Shown one piece after another: positions 55 through 47,100 of a DNA stretch of 64,000 bases; position 1 is the first letter of the stretch; each line of letters begins with the position of its first letter. Source of the DNA: Phyto melanocephala (taxonomy: Eukaryota > Arthropoda > Insecta > Diptera > Rhinophoridae); the NCBI GenBank assembly GCA_941918925.1, contig OW799237.1, positions 56,901,997-56,965,996 of the forward strand. Direction: 5' to 3'. Position numbers and translations under genes: made by a program. The notes beneath the pieces are model-generated. The model saw only the letters and a program-made list of their open reading frames with translations. It was not told the DNA's origin and searched no databases.

Positions 55-1454
55 GTAAAAGCAAAAAAAAACAAATCCAATGTCAAAAAAAATATTGTAA
101 ATGATTTTAGAGCTAGTTTTTTTCCTGAATTTAAATCATTAACGCTGATTTAGAAACTTAACTTTATATTAATTGAAATTTCTTTTTTTTTTAATTAACT
201 ATGTATGTGTGTACATATGTAGATATATGTAAGGTAAATCCAAAGAAAGGAAAGTTTTAAGAATTAAATAAAAATAAATCCAAAGTCAAGAAAATGATAA
301 ACGATTTCCCACTTTCTAAGAAGATTTTTACTATTTTGCAACTTAATTCTGCTGTTTCAAAGTAAAGTTTTAAAAAACATTCACTTATAAAAAAGTGGCA
401 ACCTTGATCCTATAAATAGAAACAAGAGTAAAAGATAAAAAAAATTTTGGAAAACTAAAACACAAAATTTGAATAAAAAAGAAAAGCCTCTCAAAATGAG
501 CAAATAATGTTTCTTTTATTGTGTGCTGAGGTGAATTTTAAACAAAAATACTTCTATGTGTGACCAGATTACCGGCGGCGCTGGAGCTCAGCTGAAGCTC
601 GACCGATGGGCTTAGATCTTGCCGGATGCCTGTCACATTACGTACACAATACAAAAATCATACCAGCTATAAGTTATTAAATAGAAAATGGGGAACCTAG
701 TTAAGGGAAACTACTCCCAATTTAACGTGCACGCACATTTATGAGCGTCTATAACTTTGCAACCACAATCGTAAAAATTAAACAAAATTTTGTTATTAAT
801 TTTTTTTATTTTGAGAATCACAAACATGTCAAAAAGGTTTTTTCCAAACTATTTTCTAGAAGAAGAACATAACCTACTCAATTTGATGTATATCAAAAAA
901 AAAAAAACTAAAATTTTGTGAAAATGAGCGAGATTACTTAATTGTGAATAAGTTCGAAAGGAATCAATCGATTTTTATGATCGATATCTTATTTTGTTGC
1001 TATTGCATGTGGCTTTGCGATAAAGAAACAAATCTTTCGTTTTCGATTTTTCATGAGTTTTTGAAAACAAAAAAAATTGCTATTTTACCGTAAAAAATAT
1101 ATTTTTTGCTTTAGTTTTTTGCTATAACTCCGAAACTACTGATCCGATTGAAAAGCAATATATAAACGGATTAAATCTAAATCTATGTAAATCTAAATTT
1201 TTCCAAGTTTATTTTAATAACATTGGACTAACCTTTTTTGAATTATCATTAATTATGTGGAGAAACGTCTAAAAAAAATATTTAATTTTACTTTAAAATG
1301 TTTTTGAATTGAAAAACTTAACCATTTTTGCACTTAGGTAGGCATGATGCATCAAATCTATATAGTGGTTGTTAAAGCCCTTTTTTGCTGTTGATCTGTA
1401 AACGATTCACTATACTGAGCACTTTCAGCTTCTTACTTTATTGTTTATGTTTCA
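55..1454. other. AT-rich stretch without a recognisable gene
   Basis: I see no coding potential or intact repeat ends here. There is a short GC-richer island around 570-640 and long A or T runs elsewhere. It is probably old, decayed repeat DNA. Confidence 0.5.
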
Positions 1455-2145
1455 TTATACCCTTCACACAGTGAAAAAGGGTATATATAGGTTTGTCATT
1501 CCGTGTGAAATTTCTACAATTTTCATTTCCGGCCCCATAAAGTATATTTTTTCTGAAAGCTTATGAATAGGGGAGTCGATTAAGCTCTGTCAGTCTGTCC
1601 GTGTGTATGTTGAAATCAACTTTTTGATCGCCTGGACCCGGGTGAGGTATTAAAATATCAGAAATATTCGAAAGTAGATCGGTATTGAAAATCAGGAACA
1701 TCGGTACATAAACAACTGAGATATGAGCAAAAAACCTCGACCACCTCGATTTTTTTTTCACAAAAACAACATACATACATACAAACAAACAAATTTTTTT
1801 TTTAATTTTTTTTTTTATATTTTTTTTCTAATTTTTTTTATATTTTTTATTTTATATATTATTTGTATTTTTATTATTATTTCTTTTTTAATCTTTTTTT
1901 TGTTTTTAAATTTTTTTTTTTTGTTTTATATTTATTTTTTATATTAATTTTTTTTTTAAATTTTTTTTTTAACATACATACATACGTAAATTAATAATTT
2001 TACAATGGGATGTTTTTATATAATACATATGTATGTACGTATTTCATATTAGATGAATGGTGATACAAACTACTGTTATTGCATGACTACACGTTGTGAA
2101 GGGTATATAAGATTCGGCACGGCCGAATATAGCGCCCTTACTTGT
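1455..2145 (+). repeat. Dispersed repeat family B, full-length copy
   Basis: It starts with the short palindrome TTATACCCTTCACACAGTG, which folds onto GTGAAAAAGGGTATA. It runs through a conserved block ('tttgtcattccg', 'aagcttatgaatagg') and a T-rich stretch near 1790-1980. It ends in the same ATTCGGC/GCCGAAT hairpin followed by CTTACTTG. A 5' palindrome with a 3' hairpin suggests a non-autonomous rolling-circle or foldback-type element, but the superfamily is not established. Short open frames inside it are low-complexity artefacts. Confidence 0.75.
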
Positions 2146-2458
2146 TTTATTAGCACGTTGTTTTTTTCATTACTTTAAAGGAGTTTTTTATACACATATA
2201 TTGTTCTGTATAATATTGATATTCCGCTTTTGCTTGGTGCACATTACCAGTGATGATGTTTTAACTACATATTTAAAGACATTTCTTTTTTTAATAATTT
2301 TCTGCTGCAAGTGCTGCCATTTTTGTCGGAATATAAATTAAATGCAGAACATATAATTAGATATTAATGTAAAATCAAGCATGGGAGACTTTAATAATGG
2401 TATTATGACAATACTATAAAATGTACTTGGTAAAAGTTTTACATAAATAATTTAATTA

Positions 2459-2661
2459 ATAAAGGGTGCCCCGGTGGACTAGTCAGTAGTGTGCTAGTTT
2501 GGGGGTTGCGGGTTCGATTCCCGCCAGAAACACTGGACTTGTCTGCTTTTCTTCTCTCTTTTCTAATCTATTCTTACTTTTCTATTCAGGTATCACAAAG
2601 GGATTAATATAATGAACCCAAGAGAGCTGCACAACAGCTGCCTGTTCTACCTAACCTAACC
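2459..2661 (+). mobile_element. tRNA-derived SINE with target-site duplication
   Basis: A 5' tRNA-like head contains an A-box-like TGGACTAGTCAG and a perfect B box GGTTCGATTCC, the internal RNA polymerase III promoter. The 3' end is CTACCTAACCTAACC. The element is bracketed by an 11-bp direct repeat TAATTTAATTA (2448-2458 and 2662-2672), as expected for target-primed insertion. The CCTAACCTAAC tail resembles the 3' end of the LOA-like retrotransposon near 51055, suggesting that an element of that kind supplied the machinery. Confidence 0.78.
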
Positions 2662-2944
2662 TAATTTAATTACATATGCCTATAATTAGCTTATAATTAT
2701 TTAGGCATAAAATACAAAATGAATTTTAGGCTAACAAAATATTCGTATTTTCTTTTTGGCGTTGCCGAACTGTACAGACCTTATTAATGGGCTTTGACAC
2801 AAATCATATTGAACTGCTAAGCGACTGAACTATTGAACTAAAACAGCGACCTAGTAGCTGCTGAAGTAGAAAGAGCGCTAACCTTAAGAAGCTGATAAAC
2901 CAACTCTAAAAATATTACAATTATTTCAAAAATATTTAATATCA

Positions 2945-3830
2945 GCCACACTAGAATTTTGTGGGAAACTGGTCTCCAGGATTATGTTCAATGTCTTACG
3001 GACTCCATGGTCACAGAGATCAGTTTTGATAGGATACCTCCACTAATAATTCCGGATAGGGATTATTGGGTAGAATCCGACGGACTATATGAGGGGAGGT
3101 CTTACATAATTTACTGGTGACTGTAGTGTGTTCCAAGTGGCTGGCTAGGAGGTTACTCTATACATTGACTCTCAGGCGGCGCTCAGGGCCTTGAAGGGAC
3201 ATTATGTCAAATCTAGGCTGGACATGGTAAGGCCTCCGATAGGTTACTATTTTGGGCGTATTATGGCGTGGGTATCCGACAGGACTAATACGGCGTGGAG
3301 GAACAGGAGGGACTGCAAAGTGTCAAGGGCTTTATGGCCCAAGTTGAACTCAGCGGACTGTCCGTCCGGATTATTGAAGATGTGTGAGGATGAGGAGGAG
3401 CTAGAGGGTGTGGATCACATTGTCTTTCACTGCCCGAGGCTACAGAATCACAGGTTTGTGGTTAGGTAGACGATTCCACGATGAGTTGGGTGATGTTTCG
3501 GAGTACAAACTGGGTAATATCATCGGATTCATCATGGGGTCGGATGGCTGGTGAACATGCAATGAGGCTCGGAGGGAATCTGTATTTCTTTCTTCTATTA
3601 TATTTCCCTCTAACTATTTCTTATTTTCATTTACTATATCTTCAGCAACACTCTCTCTCCCCTTTTTTTCTAATCAATTCTCTATCATTCTTTTATAAAG
3701 CGAAACACAATGGACCATATGGGTCTCCGAGTGTGGGTGTTAGAAGTGCCTTTTGCTTCCTGCATCCTCCTTTCTTCCTCATGCATAGGTGTTTACCTCT
3801 ATCAATTGTTGTAGTTTTTATAAATTTGTT
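2945..3830 (+). pseudogene. LOA-like non-LTR retrotransposon, 3' remnant
   Basis: This is the decayed 3' end of a retrotransposon of the RNase H-bearing LOA/I-like group. An open stretch at 3160-3469 reads an RNase H piece (IDSQAALRALKG), then DRTNTAWRN and CKVSRALWP, then a C-terminal zinc-finger-like block (MCEDEEELEGVDHIVFHCP). The same blocks occur in order in the RT frame at 23477-25790 (DRTNTAW shared; CKVARLTWP). The catalytic RT is absent, and stops interrupt the frame before 3160 and after 3469. The 3' untranslated part appears to run to about 3830. Confidence 0.7.
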
Positions 3831-14843: not shown

Positions 14844-15454
14844 TACAGAACCATAGCTGCCAGATTTGACGATTTATCGTCATTTTGACGATTTGACGAT
14901 TTATGCTATGTTTTTGACGATTTTCAAGAATTCAAGTTTGCAACATTTTTCATTACTTCTATATCAACCTTAAACTAAATAAAAATAATTTGTAACGGTT
15001 TTTTATGTTATTAATAATAGAACAGAGTGAAAGAGATACATCGATTACACTGTGCTAGTTGAAAAAACAGACAAGCCGGGCACCTAGCGTTTTAACATAA
15101 TTCGGGTACGCTGAATCCAGTGGCGCCCACGGTTTTTTAAGATTGGCTCTGGTTTTCGAGATATACCGTTATTTCGAAAATGGAGGAGGTTGCACAACAT
15201 ATGTTCGCGTAACTCAAAAACGCTTTAGCTTATTGAAAAAACTTAAAAAACCGAAATTCCGCAATAAAATTTCCTTTAAGAAAAGTCGTTTTAGAAACAT
15301 AATTTTTTTTTTGAAAAAAAAATTAATTTTTTTATAAAAATTTCGAAATTTTTATTTTTTTTAAATTCATAAAAAATTGAAAAATTCAGCTAGGCTTCTA
15401 ATTTTTTGCAGACATATAAAAAACAAAGCTGCAAACAAAACAAGCCATAAATAA

Positions 15455-16061
15455 CACTGCTCGACAAAAAATAATTTTTTTTCTTCCCGTTAATTAAAAC
15501 TATGTGGTCTATGTGGATTTTGATGCGCTGAACTCAAATCCGTAATCGGTTTTTTTCCATCAGATCGGTATTTTTTTTATGGGCGTGCCAAATTTTTTCC
15601 CCTAAATTAGGTTTCGGTTTTCAAAAGTAAAACACCAGAAGATGTGTTTTCTCTATCTCTTATCGTTTTGGAATTATTTAAAAATTAATGGAGATAAAAA
15701 AAATTTTTCGTGCCAAATTCGTAATATTTTTCAATTTAAAAATATAATTAAAAAAAATATAAAGCAAATATTCAACATTTTGCACTTTTTTCTGAGAACT
15801 ACTTATCTTAAAAATAAAAAAAGCCGCAAGCCATAAAAATCGGTTAAAAAATGTAGATTTTATTGTCAATTTACCGCAGGTACCCAATATTGTAATGCAA
15901 CCAGCCCTACAGCATTTCGTTAGGTGAGCAGGTAATGGAACTGAAGTACAACGGTATTTTGTATGGTTCTTAGAATTAAAAATTATAACATAGTATTTTT
16001 CAATTACCTGTGATTTCAAATTATTGGGTACCTGCGGTAAATTGACAATAAAATCTACACC
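15455..16061 (+). mobile_element. Inserted end fragment of the 39.8-44.8 kb element family
   Basis: It starts CACTGCTCGACAAAAAATAA after TAA and matches the reverse complement of the right end of the element at 39814-44763: shared 'cccgttaattaaaactatgt', 'tccatcagatcgg', 'aaaacaccagaagatgtg' and 'accgcaggtacccaatattg'. Near 16023-16061 a short inverted copy of 15852-15890 occurs, so the fragment ends in a small foldback. The insertion point lies inside the left arm of the host element, since the matching right arm is uninterrupted ('caagctataaacaatt'). Confidence 0.7.
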
Positions 16062-16148
16062 TGGAAAAGTTAGAAATATTATTCGTCCTGGGTTTTTTTT
16101 TACAAAACATGGTCATGAAGGTCTCGACTGGTACTTTGATTAAAACAA

Positions 16149-16169
16149 TCTATATATATAAAAGTGAAA

Positions 16170-16200
<31 letters not shown>

Positions 16201-17020
16201 CTATAGACTCTGAAACTGTAAAACCGATCGGGCTCAAACTTTGGTAAGTTGTTGTACACATACCGGGGAGTGTTTATGGATGAAAAAAAGTGGGCGGGGC
16301 CACGCCCATAAAAAATTAGTTATCAGTTTTAGCTACTTGCACTTGACCGATTTTTCTGAAACTTTGCACACATATCGAGCTGTCATGACTAAATAATTTC
16401 GTGATAAGAAAAGTGGGCGGGGCCACGCCCTTAAAAAAGTTTTAATTTTGAGGTACTTGCACTGGACCGATTTTTCTGAAACTTTGCACACATATTAAGC
16501 TGTCGTGACTTTATAATTTTGTGATTAAAAAAGTGGGCGGGGCCACGCCCATAAAAAAGGCTATTATTTTGAGGTACTTGCACCAGACTGATTTTTCTGA
16601 AACTTTGCACACATATTGAGCTGTCATGACTAAATAATTTCGTGATTAGAAAAGTGGGCAGTGCCACGCCCATAAAAAAAAGGTATAATTTTGAAGTACT
16701 TGCACTGGACCGATTATTCTGAAACTTTGCACACATATTGAGCTGTTATGACTTTACAATTTCGTGATAAGAAAAGTGGGCAGGGCCACGCCCATAAAAA
16801 CAATTTTGATTTTGAGGTACTTGCACTGGTCCGATTCTTCTGAAACTTTGCACACATATTGAGCTGTTATGACTTCACAATTTCGTGACTAGAAAAGTGG
16901 GCAATGCCACGCCCATAAAAAAATTATAATTTTTAGGTTTTTTCACTTGATATTCAATTAAAATTCAGAATGCATTTCGATTCATTAAGGGGCGTAGCAA
17001 CGCGCGCCGGGTTTGGCTAG
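16149..17020 (+). mobile_element. Non-autonomous Helitron, 872 bp
   Basis: It begins TCTATATATATAAAAGTG and ends in a GC-rich hairpin-like 'gcaacgcgcgccgggtttgg' followed by CTAG. It sits between A and T with no target duplication. TC...CTRR ends, a subterminal GC-rich stem and an A|T insertion site are the Helitron signature. A (TG)n microsatellite is at 16170-16197. The interior is a six-unit tandem array. No Rep/helicase protein is encoded, so an autonomous partner must have moved it. It landed just upstream of the promoter of the 542-aa gene. Confidence 0.82.
16280..16925. repeat. Tandem array inside the Helitron, about 121-bp period, 6 units
   Basis: The palindromic core GTGGGCGGGGCCACGCCC recurs near 16288, 16413, 16533, 16654, 16775 and 16896. 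Each copy is followed by 'gaggtacttgcact' and 'ctgaaactttgcacacat'. Repeats encode a meaningless repetitive peptide on the minus strand. Tandem satellite-like arrays inside Helitrons are known in insects. Confidence 0.85.
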
Positions 17021-17025
17021 TTACA

Positions 17026-17056
17026 GTATAAATAAGAGTTCCTCAACCCCTTCACT
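17026..17056 (+). promoter_or_regulatory. Core promoter: TATA box and initiator
   Basis: TATAAATA at 17027-17034 lies about 27 bases upstream of TTCACTG (around 17054), which resembles an arthropod initiator (TCA-type). The spacing fits a TATA-Inr promoter. The start codon of the 542-aa gene follows about 90 bases later. The Helitron ends only 6 bases upstream of the TATA box, so upstream sequence has been displaced. Confidence 0.5.
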
Positions 17057-17145
17057 GTCATATGGAAAGTGCTTGCGAAAGTGATTAGTGAATTTTAAAG
17101 CCTCTGACAGTCTTTTATCTAAACAGTTATATTGAAATATCTAAG

Positions 17146-18840
17146 ATGGAGGCGTGTAAAAAGTTTAATTACTTTTGTTATGTGTGTGGGAAATATAAAA
17201 ATATGCCAAGTCGCCGTAAAATCACTACTGAAACAAGTACCTTGTATGAATCATATTTTTCTTTAAGGGTTAAATATGGTAAGAGTTGGACACCATCAAT
17301 AGTGTGTACACACTGCATTTACCATTTAAATAAGTGGGAAAAAAATGGAGACGCCATGCCATTTGGTGTTCCAATGATTTGGAGAGATCCCATAGTTCAT
17401 GTTGAAGATGAGTGTTATGCGTGCATAAATTATACAGCGGGTATAAACAGAAGAAAAATGACTTATATGTCTTATACTGAAACAGCATATGCTCGATTTC
17501 CGCTGCCACATTCTGATGAAATTACTGTTCCGGGTAGCCATATACCAACAGAACATATTCCCTCAATAATTCATTCTGTTGAAGCGGATAGCCCAGCTTT
17601 TTCAATGTATCAACCGTCATGCATCACGGTTCCATGCAGTCACAATGAAATCACGCAAGATCGTCTGGATATAATGGTACGGCGTCTAAAATTATCTCAA
17701 AGACAGAGCATTCTCTTGGCAAAAGAGTTAAAACGAGCTAATATTTTAGCACCAGGTGTACAAACATACGGGGCTATCAATCGCCATAGACGATTTACGA
17801 CTTTTTTTAAATCTATTGAGAATAATTCTATTGCGTATTGTACTGACATCCGCGGATTGGTTTTAACAATGCAAAATGAATATAATCCTGGAGATTGGCG
17901 CTTATTCATTGATTCTTCCAAAAGTAGCTTAAAAGCAGTTTTGCTACATGTCACTAATTTAAAAAGTCCTATTCCGATAGCACTTAGCACAAATACTAAA
18001 GAGACATACGCATCAATGAAAAAAATAATACAGTTAATTAAATATGAAGACCACAAGTGGAAAATATGCGCAGATTTAAAAGTGGTAGCTCTTTTAAGAG
18101 GCATGCAATTGGGCTATACTAAAAATATGTACTTCATGTGCTTATGGAATACGCGTTTCGATGGCGACCAGTACAATACACGGGATTGGGCTTTACGAGA
18201 GGAAAGCAGATTGCATAGAAACAATGTTATTGAATTACCACTTGTGTCGATGGAAAAGATTTTGCTTCCTCCACTCCACATCAAACTGGGTATTGTAAAA
18301 AATTTTATAAAAGCATTGAGCCCAGATGGTGTTGCTTTTACCGAATTGCACCGAATTTTTCCACGATTAAGCGGCATGAAAGTAAAAGAAGGTATGAACT
18401 CTAACTACTTTATTAAATTAGATTTATATTTCATTTCATAATGTTTCTATTTTACAGGAATTCTTAATGGACCGGACATTCGCCGTCTTATGAAGGACCA
18501 TCAATTTGAGGTTGCATTGAATGATATCGAGCTATTGGCCTGGAATTGTGTGAAATCAGTAATAGAAAATGTATTAGGAAATCATCGGTCTGAAAACTGG
18601 CGAATTTTAATCAAAAATATGCTAACCGCATTTAAAAACTTAAACGTTAGAATGTCATTGAAAATACATTTTTTGCATTGCCATGCCGAAAAATTTAATG
18701 AACAATCACCAGCCGAGTCTGATGAACATGGCGAGAGATTTCACCAAGTAACAGCCAGGCTCGAACACTGGTATAGCAGCAAACAACTTGATTCGCTATT
18801 AGGGGATATTTGTTGGAATCTGCAGGAGGAAGAAGAATAA
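17146..18840 (+). CDS. Putative DDE-type transposase of uncharacterised family, 542 aa, one intron
   Basis: Exon 1 is 17146-18391 and exon 2 is 18458-18840, with a 66-base intron (GTATGA...TTTTACAG) that joins KVKEG to ILNGPD in frame. The N-terminus has Cys pairs CYVC (11,14), CTHC (54,57) and CYAC (90,93) with MPFGVPMIW between the last two, suggesting a zinc-binding DNA-recognition domain. Later come WRLFIDSSKSSLKAVLLH (Asp256), WKICADLKVV (Asp310), LLPPLHIKLG and DEHGERFHQ (Glu508, His511). The Asp-Asp spacing of 54 and the distant Glu would fit an RNase H-fold nuclease with an inserted domain; this is inference. I know the sequence as a widespread repetitive protein of arthropods and cnidarians with no settled name. 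The gene lies inside long inverted repeats, and the frame has no damage. Decayed relatives lie at 40497-43000 and 10868-11190, and all retain the key blocks that can be read. Confidence 0.78.
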
Positions 18841-19214
18841 ATTTCTAAATAAAAACTACTTAACAACAAAAAATTTTTAGTTTGGTTATATAAAAAATTC
18901 AAAAATTTCATCTTTTCTGAAAAAATCAAAAGTTGTAGACAGACTTTAATCACAAATAGCTTATTTTGCACCTGCGCAACTTTATTTTTCATTCCCATCA
19001 TTTGTTTCTAAGGCCTAGGATTCACTCCTAGGGGGATAAAATGTATGACCGACCTCCAATGTTTTTTGTTCTTAACATTTTCTTAAATTATACTTTCCCT
19101 TTATCACCATCCCTTAGGGGGGCCCCAATACAAATGTTGCGTTTTATGAAATTCTTAGATTAATTAAAATTTGTCGACTTTTGTGAATAAAATCAAAAGT
19201 TGCAAACATATTTT
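18841..19214. other. 3' untranslated region and interior of the transposon
   Basis: An AATAAA-like signal (aaataaaaac) occurs within about 10 bases of the stop codon. A small imperfect hairpin around 'cctaggattcactcctaggg' (19012-19034) follows. No further gene is seen before the right inverted repeat. Confidence 0.45.
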
Positions 19215-19838
19215 AATTGTTTATAGCTTGTTTTGTTTGCAGCTTTGTTTTTTATATGTCTGCAAAAAATTAGAAGCCTAGCTGAATTTTTCAATTTTTT
19301 ATGAATTTAAAAAAAAATTAAAAATTTCGAAATTTTTATAAAAAAATTAATTTTTTTTTCAAAAAAAAAAATTATGTTTCTAAAACGACTGCGAATGTTA
19401 GAAAGAGGTTTTACTTTTCTTAAAGGAAATTTTATTGCGGAATTTCGGTTTTTAAGTTTTTTCAATAAGCTAAAGCGTTTTTGAGTTACGCGAACATATG
19501 TTGTGCAACCTCCTCCATTTTCGAAATAACGGTATATCTCGAAAACCAGAGCCAATCTTAAAAAACCGTGGGCACCACTGGATTCAGCGTACCCGAATTA
19601 TGTTAAAACGCTAGGTGCCCAGCTTGTCACGAAAAAAAAGTGTCAATTTCATGCACAGTGTTATTATTTAATGTGTTTGTGTGGGTAATTTTTCCACTTT
19701 GTACATTTTTAACATAGTATATGCCACATTTTATCAACTGATACCTACAACATGAACAAATATAAATTTGGAAATGCGTTTAAAACAATTTTAGTTTTTT
19801 AAGTAAATTTATTTAAATTATTTAAGTGACAAATTAAT

Positions 19839-39813: not shown

Positions 39814-41431
39814 CACTGCTTGACAAAAAATAATTTTTTGTCTTCCCGTTAATTAAAACTATGTGGACTATATGGATTTTGATGCACTGAACTCAAATCC
39901 GTTGTCGGTTTTTTTCCATCAGATCGGAATTTTTTTTATGAGCGTGGCAAATTTGATCCCCTAAATTAGTCAGGTACGGAGACATACTTCATCCTAACTC
40001 GAGAACCAGTCATCCAATTTTCAAAGATAAAGCACCAGAAGATGTGTAACAAAATTGTATTGTATTAGCACTTTTATCTGAAAGCTATCTTAAAAAAAAG
40101 CCATAATCCATAAAAATCGGTTAAAAAATGTAGATTTTATTTTCGATTTCCGCAGGTACCCAATATTGACCAAATATGTGTAATGCAGCAAACAACGTGA
40201 GAGTGGGCGCACTAAAGCGCCTTGCAGCAACAATTAATGGCAACTATTTACTTCTATCTATTTTCGTACAGCAAAAACAAATACAAGCAACAAATTTTCT
40301 AGATTGTAATTTTGTAGCAACGCCTCGCTTAAAGCACCCACCCTGTCGTCACCTGTAGACAACTTCAAATTACAATAAAAAATTAAAATATTAACAGCCT
40401 ATATATTTTTTTATTTATATAAAACACAAAATTTTAGTTAATAATTATAAATTTTTTTTTAGGAAACATTGTTAAAATAAAAAAGTAGCTTAAGTTGTCC
40501 ATGCTCTTTCTTCCACATCATTCAATGTCGTTCTAAAGACCTCGTCGTTCAAAAGCTGTCGTATTTGTGGACCTACAAGTATGCCTTCTTTTACTTTAGC
40601 ATCTAGCATTAGAAAGCCTTCACCGTCCTTGTTCATTGCTTTGACAAAATTTTTTCATTAGGCCTAGCTTTATATGAAGAGGAGGCAGAAGAGTTTGTTC
40701 TTTTTGATTTAAAGGCTCTTCTGCTACATTTTTTTCTCCTGGAAAAAAATTTACTTTTTTCAACCAAATTTTAACATTGTAGTGTTTTTCTTTTCCGCGG
40801 CTATCCCATTCACATAAGAAGCAATAAAACCAAGTATATCCACTTTGCAATCCATTTAACATTGCTACGACTTTCAAATCTGCACATATGTACGTTCCAT
40901 GAGTTTTGTGAATAGTTAATTTTTTGTACAATAGTTTTCTTTCATATTTCTTGCATACGCGAGTGGGACCGACGGAAATTTATTGCCATTTGAAGTAAAA
41001 CAGCTTTCAAACTTATCTTGGATGAATCAATAAAAAGCCGCCAATCCTCAGATTTATGAATGAAACACAGTGTTTTGTAAAGTTGTCGCAAAAGCCCATC
41101 AGCATTATCACAAAATACCAAACCTTCCTCTTTGCTGAAATAACTCAAAAAAGGTTGTTCTCTATTTGGAAAGTACGAGACGTTAACGTCCTTTTGCATA
41201 TTCATATCAGTTTAATTCGGAAAATAATGTTTACTTCCAAATGATTGCGATGAAACACCCATGCTGGCGTAAGTGGATTCAGTTGCTGCAGAAAGCCCAT
41301 TTTCTTCATCGTCTGTAGGAGGCAATGGAGGTAAAAATTTACTTGTAAGCTGGTAAACTGGTCATTTAACGCATGAAGTATTTGGATATATAACTTTAGT
41401 TCTTTTTTCGTAAACCCACGTGTTTTAGTAA

Positions 41432-42688
41432 AAGGCCTATTAGACACGCATACTTGTCTTAAGACATGTACGATGGCATACCAAGTCTCACTGTGTAATA
41501 GCATGTACGTCGAGTATGTTAGACATGTATGTTGGTTTTCAAAAATTTTTGAAAACCTGAGTCTGTCGCATACAAACATACTCGTCTAATAGCGTGTCTG
41601 TCATACTTCATACAAAAATTCATTCAAATTTTTGCCGCTGCTGTGTGCATATCGGAAATGCTATATTTGGCCGTACCGAATCTGATAATACCCTTCACCA
41701 TCATGTATAAAGGTATAATCCCGCATCGTAGCTTAACCTATATTTCATATTTTACGCCATTTTTCCTTATTATTTCCGACGCAATCCTTGATTTTGAATT
41801 TTTACGTTGTTATCTGTATTCAACTAGTCAAGCCCTTTCATTTGATACCCATCTTGGATTTTAAATTTTTGTAATAATTTACTGTATTCTACTGGTCAAG
41901 CCCTTTCATTTGATACCAATATTGAGGGGGTTCTAGAAGTTACATTTAAAAATACCAGATTTGACCCATTTATAAATTTATTGTTCGCATTTTGTAGTGG
42001 CGGCCAACATGAGTTTTAATTTTTTTTATAGTGCTTATATTGATTTTCGTTTGTAAATTTTTGGAATATATATTTTTTAAAAAAAATTTTTGCCTATAAC
42101 TTTACCGATTAAAACCCGATTTATCTAAAATGTTTCATGAACATCTCTCTAGGCATATTATATCTAAAAATAGTAACAAGGTACCTATAAATAATTCTAT
42201 GGCTGAAAAATTTTAATTTTGGTGGTAAAAATATGGGAAAAAACAGAGACAATCGCGTTTATTTGCTCATATCTCAGAAAGTTGTACGGCGATTTTCAAT
42301 AGCGATTCATTGCCGGATTGATACCTTACAAAGGTCTGAGGAACATTTGGTTGCTTCTAAAAGTTGATTTTAACCACCACACGGACAGACGGTCAGGGCT
42401 TAATCGACTCCTCTATTCATAAGCTTTCAGAATATATATACTTTTTGGGGTCGGAAATTAAAATTGTAGAAATTACAAACGGAATGACAAAGCTATATAT
42501 ACCCTTGTGCACCACAGGTAAAGGGTATAAAAATAGAACTATTGACAACTTTCCGCTTCATTGCCATGTTTTCGCTTCAAAATTTTCTGTGTAATGAAGT
42601 ATGCCGTCAGAGTTCGACAGTGTAATAGCTAAACCCAAAGTATGCCATACATATGTCTTAAGACAAGTATGTCTGTCTAATAGGCCTT
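41432..42688. mobile_element. Inverted-repeat element inserted in the transposase pseudogene
   Basis: The ends are AAGGCCTATTAGACA(C/G)... then 'gcatacttgtcttaagacat', with the reversed right end 'aataggcctt'. The flanks are TAA (41429-41431, 42689-42691). The arms match over about 50 bp. The interior holds a family B repeat (41660-42531) and remnants of a second inverted pair ('gtatgttggttttcaaaaat'). The insertion falls just after the DCYFC zinc-motif codons. It is non-coding. Confidence 0.75.
41660..42531 (-). repeat. Dispersed repeat family B, divergent copy
   Basis: Starts 'ggccgtaccgaatctgataataccctt' in degenerate form and ends 'gtgcaccacaggtaaagggtata'. It includes 'cacggacagacggtcagggc' and 'cataagctttcagaatatat'. 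It lies within the inverted-repeat element at 41432-42688. Confidence 0.7.
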
Positions 42689-43514
42689 TAAGGCAAAAGT
42701 AGCAATCATTTTTATGATTTTGTGATTCACTCCAAATCGCTGGCTTCATAAAAGGCAAAGACTTATGACTTCCTTTTAAACAATCTCTTAAAGACCTTGC
42801 ACAGCTACTACAACATATTTTCGGCAGTCAATTTTTATCTCTATCATCGATAGGAAACCAAAACAACGGCGATAATCATCTTTAATCTTGGAAGCTATTG
42901 TCTCCCGTTGAGAACTTAAAGTTAGATTGCCACATACGTAACAAAATTAATTTAGAGATTTGTTAACAAATCCTTGACATTTTGTAATATGAAAGCGTTT
43001 GTGGATTCTTTAATTGCTTTATTTCTTTACACAATAACAAAGTACACTATTAGATCTATTTACTGTTGCCGATTTTAACCGCACGATATTCAAATTAAAA
43101 GTGACTCACTTATTGTCCATCAGCTTCTATATATATAGTAAATACCAGAATTTACCAAAATACCGTTGTACTTTAGTTCCATTACCTGCTCACCTAACGA
43201 AATGCTATATCATATGTAAGGCTGGTTGCATTACAATATTGGGTACCTGCGGTAAATTGACAATAAAATCTAAACTTTTTAACCGATTTTTATGGTTTAT
43301 AACTTTTTTTATTTCTAACATAAGTAGCTCTCAGAAAAAAGTGCAAAATGTTGAATATTTGCTTCATATTTTTTCTAATTCCATTTTTAAATTGAAAAAA
43401 AATTCGAATTTTGCACGAACAAATTTTTTTTTCTCCATTAATTTCTGAATAATTCCAAAACGATAAGAGATAGAGAAAAATTCTATTCGACTAAAATAAA
43501 TACAATTTTGTTGC

Positions 43515-44196
43515 ACATCTTCTGGTGTTTTATTTTTAGATCGGATGACTGGTTCTCGAGTTAAGTTAGAGTTACATACCATCCGTTCATGCGTTGTTGC
43601 GTTTAATACTTTTTCACCTTTTTATACGTTTCTAAACTCAAGTTACACACAACTCTTATGTTTTAATCAGCTGTTGTGTTTATATTTTTATTAACTAAAA
43701 ACAATTTTGCCAAAATGGAAAGTAAAATTGACAATTTAAGGGAATTTATTTAGTTTATGTACATGATATTTTGTGCTACAAAAAGTTCAAAAATAACACA
43801 AGCATCAAAAAGCATCTCCTCCATTGCACTTGTTTTCTTTTAATAATAAACAAACACATCTTCTGGTGTTTTATTTTTAGATCGGATGACTGGTTCTCGA
43901 GTTAAGTTAGAGTTACATACCATCCGTTCATGCGTTGTTGCGTTTAATACTTTTTCACCTTTTTATACGTTTCTAAACTCAAGTTACACACAACTCTTAT
44001 GTTTTAATCAGCTGTTGTGTTTATATTTTTATTAACTAAAAACAATTTTGCCAAAATGGAAAGTAAAATTGACAATTTAAGGGAATTTATTTAGTTTATG
44101 TACATGATATTTTGTGCTACAAAAAGTTCAAAAATAACACAAGCATCAAAAAGCATCTCCTCCATTGCACTTGTTTTCTTTTAATAATAAACAAAC
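43515..44196 (+). repeat. Tandem duplication, 341 bp x 2, apparently identical
   Basis: The block starting 'acatcttctggtgttttatt' (43515) repeats at 43856, and I see no difference across the 341 bases, including 'catgcgttgttgcgtttaat' and 'ccaaaatggaaagtaaaatt'. It lies in the right end of the 39814-44763 element. It is recent, or an assembly artefact. Confidence 0.88.
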
Positions 44197-47100
44197 AGCA
44201 CATAATAGTTATCGATAAGTAGAATAAAAATTTTGGTAATGAAAAAATTGTGTTTAAAATTAGTTTTTTTGTATGTTTTTCTTAAAAGTAATTGTAAACT
44301 TTATTTCGAACGCTTTTTCTTTTATTAAAAACATTTTTTAATACAAAAAAATTGAAAAAATAAATCCAACACACAATCAGATTTATCAATAACATCGACA
44401 AAAAATATTATTTGTCATCCATGGCTATCAACAACCGCTGACATTTTTTCACCTTTTCTGCGACGGATACAAAAGTAGAAAGTAAACCTATTCTTTGCGT
44501 TTTGCCGTGTAACTTGTCACATACAATTACACTGATTCTACTTTTTGACAGATGCATAAAACGGAAACACGGATAGAACGCATGGTATGTAACTCCAGCT
44601 TTAGGATGAAATATGTCTCCATACCTGACTAATTTAGGGGAAAAAATTTGCCACGCCCATAAAAAAAATCATGATCTGATGGAAAAAACCGTCAACGGAT
44701 TTGAGTTTAGCGCATCAAATCCACATAGTTTTATTTAAGGGAGAATTTTGCTGCTGAGCAGTGTAATCGAAAGGTGTTCATCTGGCATCTCTGCCTAAAA
44801 ACGTAAACATCGTGTTATTTTTTGCTCTAAATTATTAAATTAATTTTATTTTTAAGAAAGTCGATACTAATACTGTTTTATGTTTTTCATTTCTGACAAT
44901 GCTGTCACAAAAAAGAAAGAAACATTGGGATAATTGCCCAAAATTCAAAGTAACTAAAGCATCAGAAATGCAAAGCAGTAATGCAAATAGATTTCATCTA
45001 CTTGCAAATGAAGAAGAGGAAGAACATGATACTCACAAGGAGGAAATACCACCAATTGTAGTGGATTCTGTCCATAGTTTTTCATCAGTTTTTGGACTAA
45101 TTGGATACAGGCATATGTTCAAAAGAATGTCCATTGGAACAAAAATAATATCAAGCTCAAGGATACTGTATAACGAGGCCTTAAATGTACTAAGAAATAC
45201 CAATTTTACACGCATGAAATAAAAGATGCAAAAACGTTTAAATTAGTGTTGTTTGGTCTTATTCAAACGAATACTAAGATAATTTGTGATGAATTTAACA
45301 TAAATCCGGTAAGTGTAATGGAAATCACCACGAAAAGATCAACCCCACGCAGATGATACGCTATAATATCTAATTGAATTTGATCATCAAGTGTCGAAGA
45401 GGGATATATCCAAAATAAGATATTTTGGTAATATTGCCGTTTTTGGAGAAGGCCACTCAAGGGCAGCAAAGGCCCAACTCAATGCACCAAATGCTCTATG
45501 TATGGTTACGGTGCTGGGAACTTTAACAGTGTAGTAGTGTGTGCAGCCTGTGCCTGTAATCACGAATTTGCAGATTGTCAATTAAAAAAAGCCGCTAATA
45601 GTGAGAACATTATCTACAACTGCTACAACTGTGCTAGGAAAAATTTTAAAAATGTAAAGCACAGAGCTGACGACCCCAAATGCCCGTGTCGTCAGGAATC
45701 CTGGAGATTCGTCAGCCAGAAATAAAGTACCACATAGGACTAATATGCTGAACTTCAACTCCGATAAAGTTAGTTTTCCGGTAAGGAACACCAATTTATA
45801 CACGTGACTCTGGTGCTAAAAGTAATGTACTGTACTCTGATGTAACAAAAAGTAAGACCCTTGTTAACAGAAATGAAGATGATATTTCTAATGAGAAATG
45901 GATACAAATATTTTCGATGCTGCCGATGCACTTTAAAGGTGCCAAAATAAGTACCACAAGCTACGAGTGCTGGGAATGATGCTTAAACATGCAATATATG
46001 TAAATCAACAGTTAGTCTCAGTGTTCATGTTATGCACTGGAATGCTCAAGGCATAACGACTGAGTCAGCAGCTTCACAGCTGGAAAAAATTTTATATGAC
46101 AAGGAAGTTGATATTCTCCTTATCAACATACGCACTGGAATTGTTTCCCAAACAATATTGCTGGTAATGAGCTTTATAGCCATAGCCTTTAATCAAACTA
46201 CTACATTTATTACTCAAATGCATTTACTCGTCTTGGACAAAATATAAATCCAGTACAGCCGTCTACAGTAGACATCTTTTTAACTAACTCTTGTCTTCCT
46301 TTTTCAACCTTGGAAACACATTCAAATATGTTGCAGTCGGACCATGTACCACCAACTTGCGTCATTTATGGAGAGGTACAGAATAGCATTTTGATGCTAC
46401 CCTTTTATAATCGAGCCGATTGGTCATCAATAACAAACTTCGTGGAAAGTGAAATAATATTACAAGAGATTGATCAAAATATTACAAACTCAAGTAATCT
46501 ACATTTAGCATTAAGTAAACTAATATCCATTGTAAAAGAAGCTACAAATAAAATACCAGCTGTTCATAGAAACCTCTTCCAACGGGAAATTTGAGAAATT
46601 AGTAAAATGCAAATTTCTCAGAGAAACAAATATAGACGCAAATATCAAAGACATAGGAATATAAATTTTTTAATGCAATTAAACTGTATTTGCAGCAGCT
46701 AAATAAGCTTATTTACTTTCACCTAAATAAAGACAGAAATGAATCTTGGTCGAAATTCATATCAAAGCTGCCTACCAGCTCTAAGAAGTTTTGGAAATTG
46801 ACAAAAACTTTAAAAGGCAAAAGCTCCACATTGTCAAATCTTCATTTAAATTGAACAATTTTAAATTCTGACGTCGAGAAGGCAAATACAATAGCTGACT
46901 TATTTGCTAGTTCATATACCATTACTTTTAACAATCCATCACCCGTGGACTCGGTTGTATCAAGATACATTAATGACCTCAATCAAACTCTTACCGATGA
47001 TACAAGTATTGAACTTACAAATTCGTTTGAGGTCAACTCGGTTGTCCCCTGCTTTAGATGGGATTAACAGCATAGTACTTAAAAATATGTCCGATTACTT

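Follow-up and report, generated by a model that had tools for sequence, protein, structure and literature searches.

What kind of transposon lies at positions 15,048-19,660 of a 64,000-nucleotide stretch of the Phyto melanocephala genome (contig OW799237.1; the whole stretch is called the window below), and what might explain the different layout of its two ends? The original prediction described an intact, possibly active DNA transposon at 15070-19628. The best explanation is that it belongs to a young Chapaev3 family of cut-and-paste transposons, and we assign this a probability of about 0.93. This family is called D (ends CACTGTG), and two further Chapaev3 families of the same genome are called A (CACTGCT) and B (CACTAGG); the proteins of the three families share 36-44% identity. 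D is a new family within a known group, placed there by published hallmarks. For the specialist, the geometry of its ends and a ZAD-like domain in its transposase are of more interest than the element itself.

Family D and its assignment to Chapaev3

Inverted arms at 15070-15283 and 19415-19628 (214 nt, 92% complementary, far above chance) extend to 15454 and 19217. The predicted terminal inverted repeats of about 400 bp therefore exist as arms, but their limits are not the ends of the element. When the window was compared with 20 fetched copies (L009-L028), similarity continued beyond the inner repeats for 22 bp on the left and 32 bp on the right, up to CACTGTG tips, and the element was delimited at 15048-19660 with TTA on either flank. 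The tip letters are altered only in L017 (left) and L016 (right). A genome search for the start of the repeats and a test for empty sites, both proposed with the original prediction, gave positive results: in the 740-Mb genome, a 20-mer taken from the start of the inner repeat has 797 occurrences (reversed control, 0), and the heptamer plus inner motif marks 994 ends (control, 0), or roughly 500 elements.

Target duplications are identical in 17 of the 21 copies, 13 of these 17 being TTA or TAA, with A directly 5' in 20 copies and T directly 3' in 19; L024 and L025 represent one duplicated insertion. In family B, duplications are identical in 18/18 copies, TWA in 16, and both the flanking A and T are found in 16/18. 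For 41 insertions, taken from all three families, the two flanks were fused and searched against collected loci, and 8 of them gave matches across the joint; L024 and L025 match only each other. Four empty sites inspected, for D (L012, L061) and B (L041, L053), are paralogous and hold a single copy of the duplication, with one letter of it differing for L012.

The predicted gene model holds: an open frame of 542 codons starts at ATG 17146 and runs through two exons, the GT/AG letters of its 66-base intron are kept in 14/14 other gene-bearing copies, and the gene has its own TATA box, which recurs in the three copies inspected there. Homologues such as P0024 and P0031 run across the exon joint without an intron. 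A search of 5.8 billion proteins (E<=1e-3) returned 1590 relatives, and searches of viral contigs and of bacterial and archaeal genomes found none. In the homologue alignment (A2), aspartate occupies the D256 column in 102/102 sequences and the D310 column in 101/102, in agreement with two members of the DDE triad proposed originally. Its third member, E508, shares complete invariance with E505 (85/85 letters each); both are candidates for the catalytic glutamate.

Chapaev3 elements (Garfield, Merrow and Conan) end in CAC/GTG, insert between A and T with duplication of TWA, and encode proteins with C(2)C, LH and H(4)H motifs (PMC4079192). Family D shares these features. CACTGTG stands at both ends, and 3-bp TWA duplications between A and T are found in D and B. 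The C(2)C motif is present in the other gene-bearing copies of D (14/14), though not in the window copy. The LH motif (in PPLHIKLG) and H(4)H (in HFLHCH) are present in the window protein and in A2, where LH is found in 102/102 sequences, H489 in 87/88 and H494 in 85/86. The DDE core is represented by the D256 and D310 columns and by the predicted RAG1-like fold. Merrow and Garfield also have two exons, and Garfield_BM has 556 residues (PMC4079192), compared with 542 in D; the element itself is longer, about 3.7 kb without a nested insert versus 2,289 bp for Garfield_BM. D also has inner repeats of about 400 bp and an offset between its ends; the offset is not mentioned for Garfield, Merrow or Conan in the part of PMC4079192 consulted.

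Chapaev3 has been placed in the Transib superfamily together with RAG1, and a zinc domain, 'Chapa', is common to Chapaev3 and the RAG1 N-terminus (PMC4411706). A full-length model of homologue P0006 (54% identical to the window protein) matches RAG1 in fold, with RAG1 and HzTransib among its best fold matches. Among PDB sequences, profile A2 matches the N-terminal region of RAG1 best, with an E-value of only 0.7 (2.2 with profile A4), and this match was not counted as proof; RAG1_imp_bd matched 1 of 36 members (E 0.54). Together with the target duplications and empty sites, the fold match supports the original view of the element as a DNA transposon that encodes a DDE transposase. Two outcomes had been named as refuting it, a fold without an RNase H core and gene copies without inverted repeats; neither was seen.

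A nameless transposase superfamily, as the original prediction had it, is very improbable. Neither the window protein nor P0006 scores above the cut-off of any Pfam family, and the 120 homologues listed out of the 1590 are without names or are called uncharacterized, hypothetical or unnamed, as such a superfamily would have it; the Chapaev3 hallmarks found here contradict it. Assignment to Transib or RAG-like transposons, which the CAC ends and the fold matches to RAG1 and HzTransib might recommend, is more improbable still. Those transposons make 5-bp target duplications (PMC7204232), whereas the duplications of D and B, confirmed at empty sites, are 3 bp long and A/T-rich, and the motifs and target context fit Chapaev3 instead.

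The N-terminal zinc domain of the transposase (residues 1-135, 17146-17550) carries CxxC pairs at residues 11, 54 and 90, which in the original prediction could bind the inverted repeats. Modelled from the window's own N-terminal stretch, it has a predicted fold resembling the ZAD domain of insect zinc-finger proteins; several of the matched ZAD domains dimerise. As to a Chapa domain, the sequence match is to the RAG1 N-terminus, at the E-values given above, and the fold match is to ZAD. A common origin of the transposase domain and ZAD is possible, and the ZAD-like fold suggests a link from this transposase to a large family of insect transcription factors.

The family is young. Fourteen of the 20 fetched copies have a nearly whole gene and L011 has part of one; identity to the window gene is 98-99% in 12 of the 14, 97% in L013 and 94% in L017, and L021 and L027, like the window copy, are free of indels and stops. 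Private changes in 13 copies number 70 non-silent and 19 silent (ratio 3.68, with 3.22 expected without selection), and variants shared among them number 21 and 3. Thus, no purifying selection on single copies is seen in these 13. Five further copies (L010, L018, L019, L020 and L026) have D ends around interiors that do not align with the window gene, and are probably non-autonomous derivatives.

Unequal ends in three families

In the D element, the heptamer is separated from the inner repeat by 15 bp on the left and 25 bp on the right. Among 22 collected D elements with exact matches at either end, the spacers are 15/25 in 19 and 15/24 in the remaining three (L059-L061). A genome-wide search for D ends admitted any spacer from 5 to 35; counts for this and the other families refer to the first 100 ends listed. 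The D spacers (of 994 ends) are 15 (41 ends), 25 (40), 24 (12), 23 (4), 26 (2) and 14 (1). Family B (251 ends) has spacers of 22 bp (51) and 12 bp (49), and family A (2307 ends) has 24 bp (51), 34 bp (47) and 33 bp (2). Thus, 279 of the 300 listed ends carry one of the two spacers of their family, 17 deviate by 1 bp and 4 by 2 bp. Facing ends pair short with long in 88 of 91 cases: 27/30 in D (pairs under 12 kb), 42/42 in B and 19/19 in A, the shortest spanning 387 bp. Two of the three D exceptions have unmatched duplications; the third, with matching TTA, joins two subfamilies and has one truncated end.

In a single representative per family (window, L029 and L036), the distance from the tip to a CTGAAY box is 63 bp at the short end and 73 bp at the long end. 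Ten base pairs correspond to about one helical turn of DNA. Ungapped pairwise comparison of the ends is best at tip register 0 in 5 of 6 cases, this register ranking third for the short ends of D versus B. When the three short ends are compared jointly from the tip, 16 columns agree, the highest count among 961 registers and a value reached by 2 of 5000 shuffles.

Family B (L032 and L034-L058) is also young, with open frames of 508 residues in 22 of its 26 fetched copies. Both ends were located by fuzzy match in 23; the gene runs from long to short end in 12 and from short to long in 10, and L045 is long/long. The two gene orientations suggest inversion between the inner repeats. L031 contains, at 1212-3347, a 2136-bp Chapaev3 element with only 13-bp inverted repeats and a 10-mer common to its two ends, between which it is shifted by 11 bp; the element is a possible further case and was not counted. 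A search for element ends in L033 found none. An apparent A pair in L061 (1182/5254) was read as spurious and left out of the counts: one of its ends falls within a D element, the other within the A element into which D had inserted.

The layout resembles the 12/23 signals of antibody-gene recombination in that the two spacings stand about one helical turn apart. The vertebrate signals differ by 11 bp. In ProtoRAG (BbRAGL) the ends are 27/31, a difference of 4 bp, and unequal ends work best, whereas most Transibs have symmetric ends (PMC8289069), and a few have 12/23-like ends (PMC8355894). D is distinct from these systems: RAG1/ProtoRAG and Transib (HzTransib) make 5-bp and D 3-bp duplications, the mostly symmetric Transib ends contrast with the unequal ends of D, the RAG1/ProtoRAG nonamer is replaced by the box at 63/73 with its 10-bp offset, and no sequence similarity of RAG1 or ProtoRAG to the D transposase was detected. 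The literature searched gives no account of unequal Chapaev3 ends, although Repbase Reports, where Chapaev3 was described, possibly lies outside it.

These observations raise the possibility that Chapaev3 follows a 12/23-like rule of its own. The transposase would act as a RAG1-like dimer that recognises the heptamer and the inner box. Because the box of one end is displaced inward by one helical turn, one short end would be paired with one long end by the RAG1-fold dimer. Nicking would occur 5' of CAC, hairpins would probably be left on the flanking DNA, as with RAG, and insertion would follow with a 3-bp stagger at A-TWA-T. The RAG1-fold transposase seems to be the sole protein that its element encodes, no search having been aimed at a second protein such as RAG2. 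That Chapaev3 has such a rule, that unequal ends are old or recurrent in the RAG1 superfamily with no need for RAG2, and that the N-domain has a ZAD fold together form a proposal for which we consider the chances evenly balanced.

The one-turn offset could instead be an inherited accident, a 10-bp difference between ancestral ends with no role in pairing, which we rate as a serious though somewhat less probable explanation. Retention of the offset within a family needs no selection, because all copies descend from short/long parents, and the offset may date to a single event, because the inner repeats of D, A and B look homologous. However, the box has stayed at 63/73 while the proteins diverged to 36-44% identity and the ends to 32-46% of shared letters without gaps, and D is about as distant from B (38% protein identity) as from a leech homologue (42%). 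The constancy of the two spacers within each family and the register shared by the short ends also speak against an accident, with the reservation that D versus B alone ranks third. The best explanation, with its pairing of short and long ends, has in turn several points against it. The offset layout is known from one genome and three families, in which the offset may have arisen only once, and within one family the layout is inherited anyway. The chemistry of cutting, the hairpins and the pairing of a short with a long end are inferences. The full-length model was made on P0006 and not on the window protein, and a sequence-profile alignment against RAG1 finds nothing (hhalign probability 0.6). 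As to the transposon itself, four of 21 copies (L017, L020, L026 and L027) are without identical target duplications, and the window copy is without the first cysteine of C(2)C.

For the question of how V(D)J recombination acquired its 12/23 spacing rule, ProtoRAG and the few Transibs with unequal ends have been the comparisons so far. Chapaev3 adds a more distant relative of RAG1 with abundant, young and precisely offset ends, which make it testable whether a RAG1-type enzyme alone prefers unequal ends. If Chapaev3 does follow a 12/23-like rule, unequal paired ends, known from recombination signals, ProtoRAG and a few Transibs, would be old or recurrent across the RAG1 superfamily, and RAG2 would not be needed for them.

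Condition of the window copy and other features

The window copy is not intact, contrary to the original prediction. An 872-bp insertion, missing at that site from L009, L015 and L027, stops 6 bp short of the TATA box. It contains several tandem copies of a unit of about 120 bp. Helitrons begin with TC, end with CTRR and insert between A and T without a target duplication. Judged by its letters, the insertion is Helitron-like (TC...CTAG, between A and T relative to copies that lack it), and it would be non-autonomous, because the longest open frame listed there has 104 aa. In addition, residue 329 is tyrosine in the window copy and cysteine in 14/14 other gene-bearing copies and in 101/101 letters of A2. 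A loss of activity is likely because of this tyrosine at a C(2)C position and the upstream insertion; the copy is probably a dead or weak source of enzyme and may still serve as a substrate.

It is therefore unlikely that the window copy is an active autonomous element. Its open frame, kept splice sites and TATA box would allow activity, and only three private codon changes (one silent, two not) are seen in the comparison of 13 copies, so the copy looks young; set against these are the tyrosine at a zinc-ligand position and the insertion immediately upstream of the TATA box. Although the family is young, the tyrosine and the insertion weaken the original suggestion that this copy is possibly active.

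Table 1. Features of the D element and of a second Chapaev3-type element in the window
Feature	Position	Strand	Remarks
Left target duplication TTA	15045..15047		A before it; from copy comparison
Left terminal heptamer CACTGTG	15048..15054	+	True left end; CACTGTGC (8 letters) there in 19/20 fetched copies, altered in L017
Spacer of short end	15055..15069	+	15 bp
Left inner inverted repeat	15070..15454	+	Begins GACAAGC
CTGAAT box	15111..15116	+	63 bp from left tip
Stretch opening with long end of family A (CACTGCT)	15455..16148	+	Parts match DNA at 39.8-44.7 kb
Nested Helitron-like insertion	16149..17020	+	TC...CTAG between A and T; 872 bp; internal tandem repeats
TATA box	17027..17034	+	TATAAATA; common to L009, L015 and L027
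Transposase exon 1	17146..18391	+	Zinc N-domain; D256 17911-17913; D310 18073-18075; Tyr329 18130-18132
Intron	18392..18457	+	66 bp, GT..AG
Transposase exon 2	18458..18840	+	H(4)H; E505 18724-18726; E508 18733-18735; stop
Right inner inverted repeat	19217..19628	-
CTGAAT box	19582..19587	-	73 bp from right tip
Spacer of long end	19629..19653	-	25 bp
Right terminal heptamer CACTGTG	19654..19660	-	GCACAGTG there in 19/20 fetched copies, altered in L016
Right target duplication TTA	19661..19663		T after it; from copy comparison
Second, decayed Chapaev3-type element	39814..44763		CACTGCT ends; TAA duplications; protein fragments 40499-41166 (minus)

The original prediction spoke of two decayed relatives; at E<=1e-3 the window yields one of them, through three minus-strand matches within 40499-41166, and not the second. 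The relative found, at 39814-44763, has the box at 73 on its long end and an altered box at 53 on its short end. A long end of family A also sits in the left arm of D, from 15455 onward, and about 410 bp inside several D copies. Family D thus carries a piece of another Chapaev3 element.
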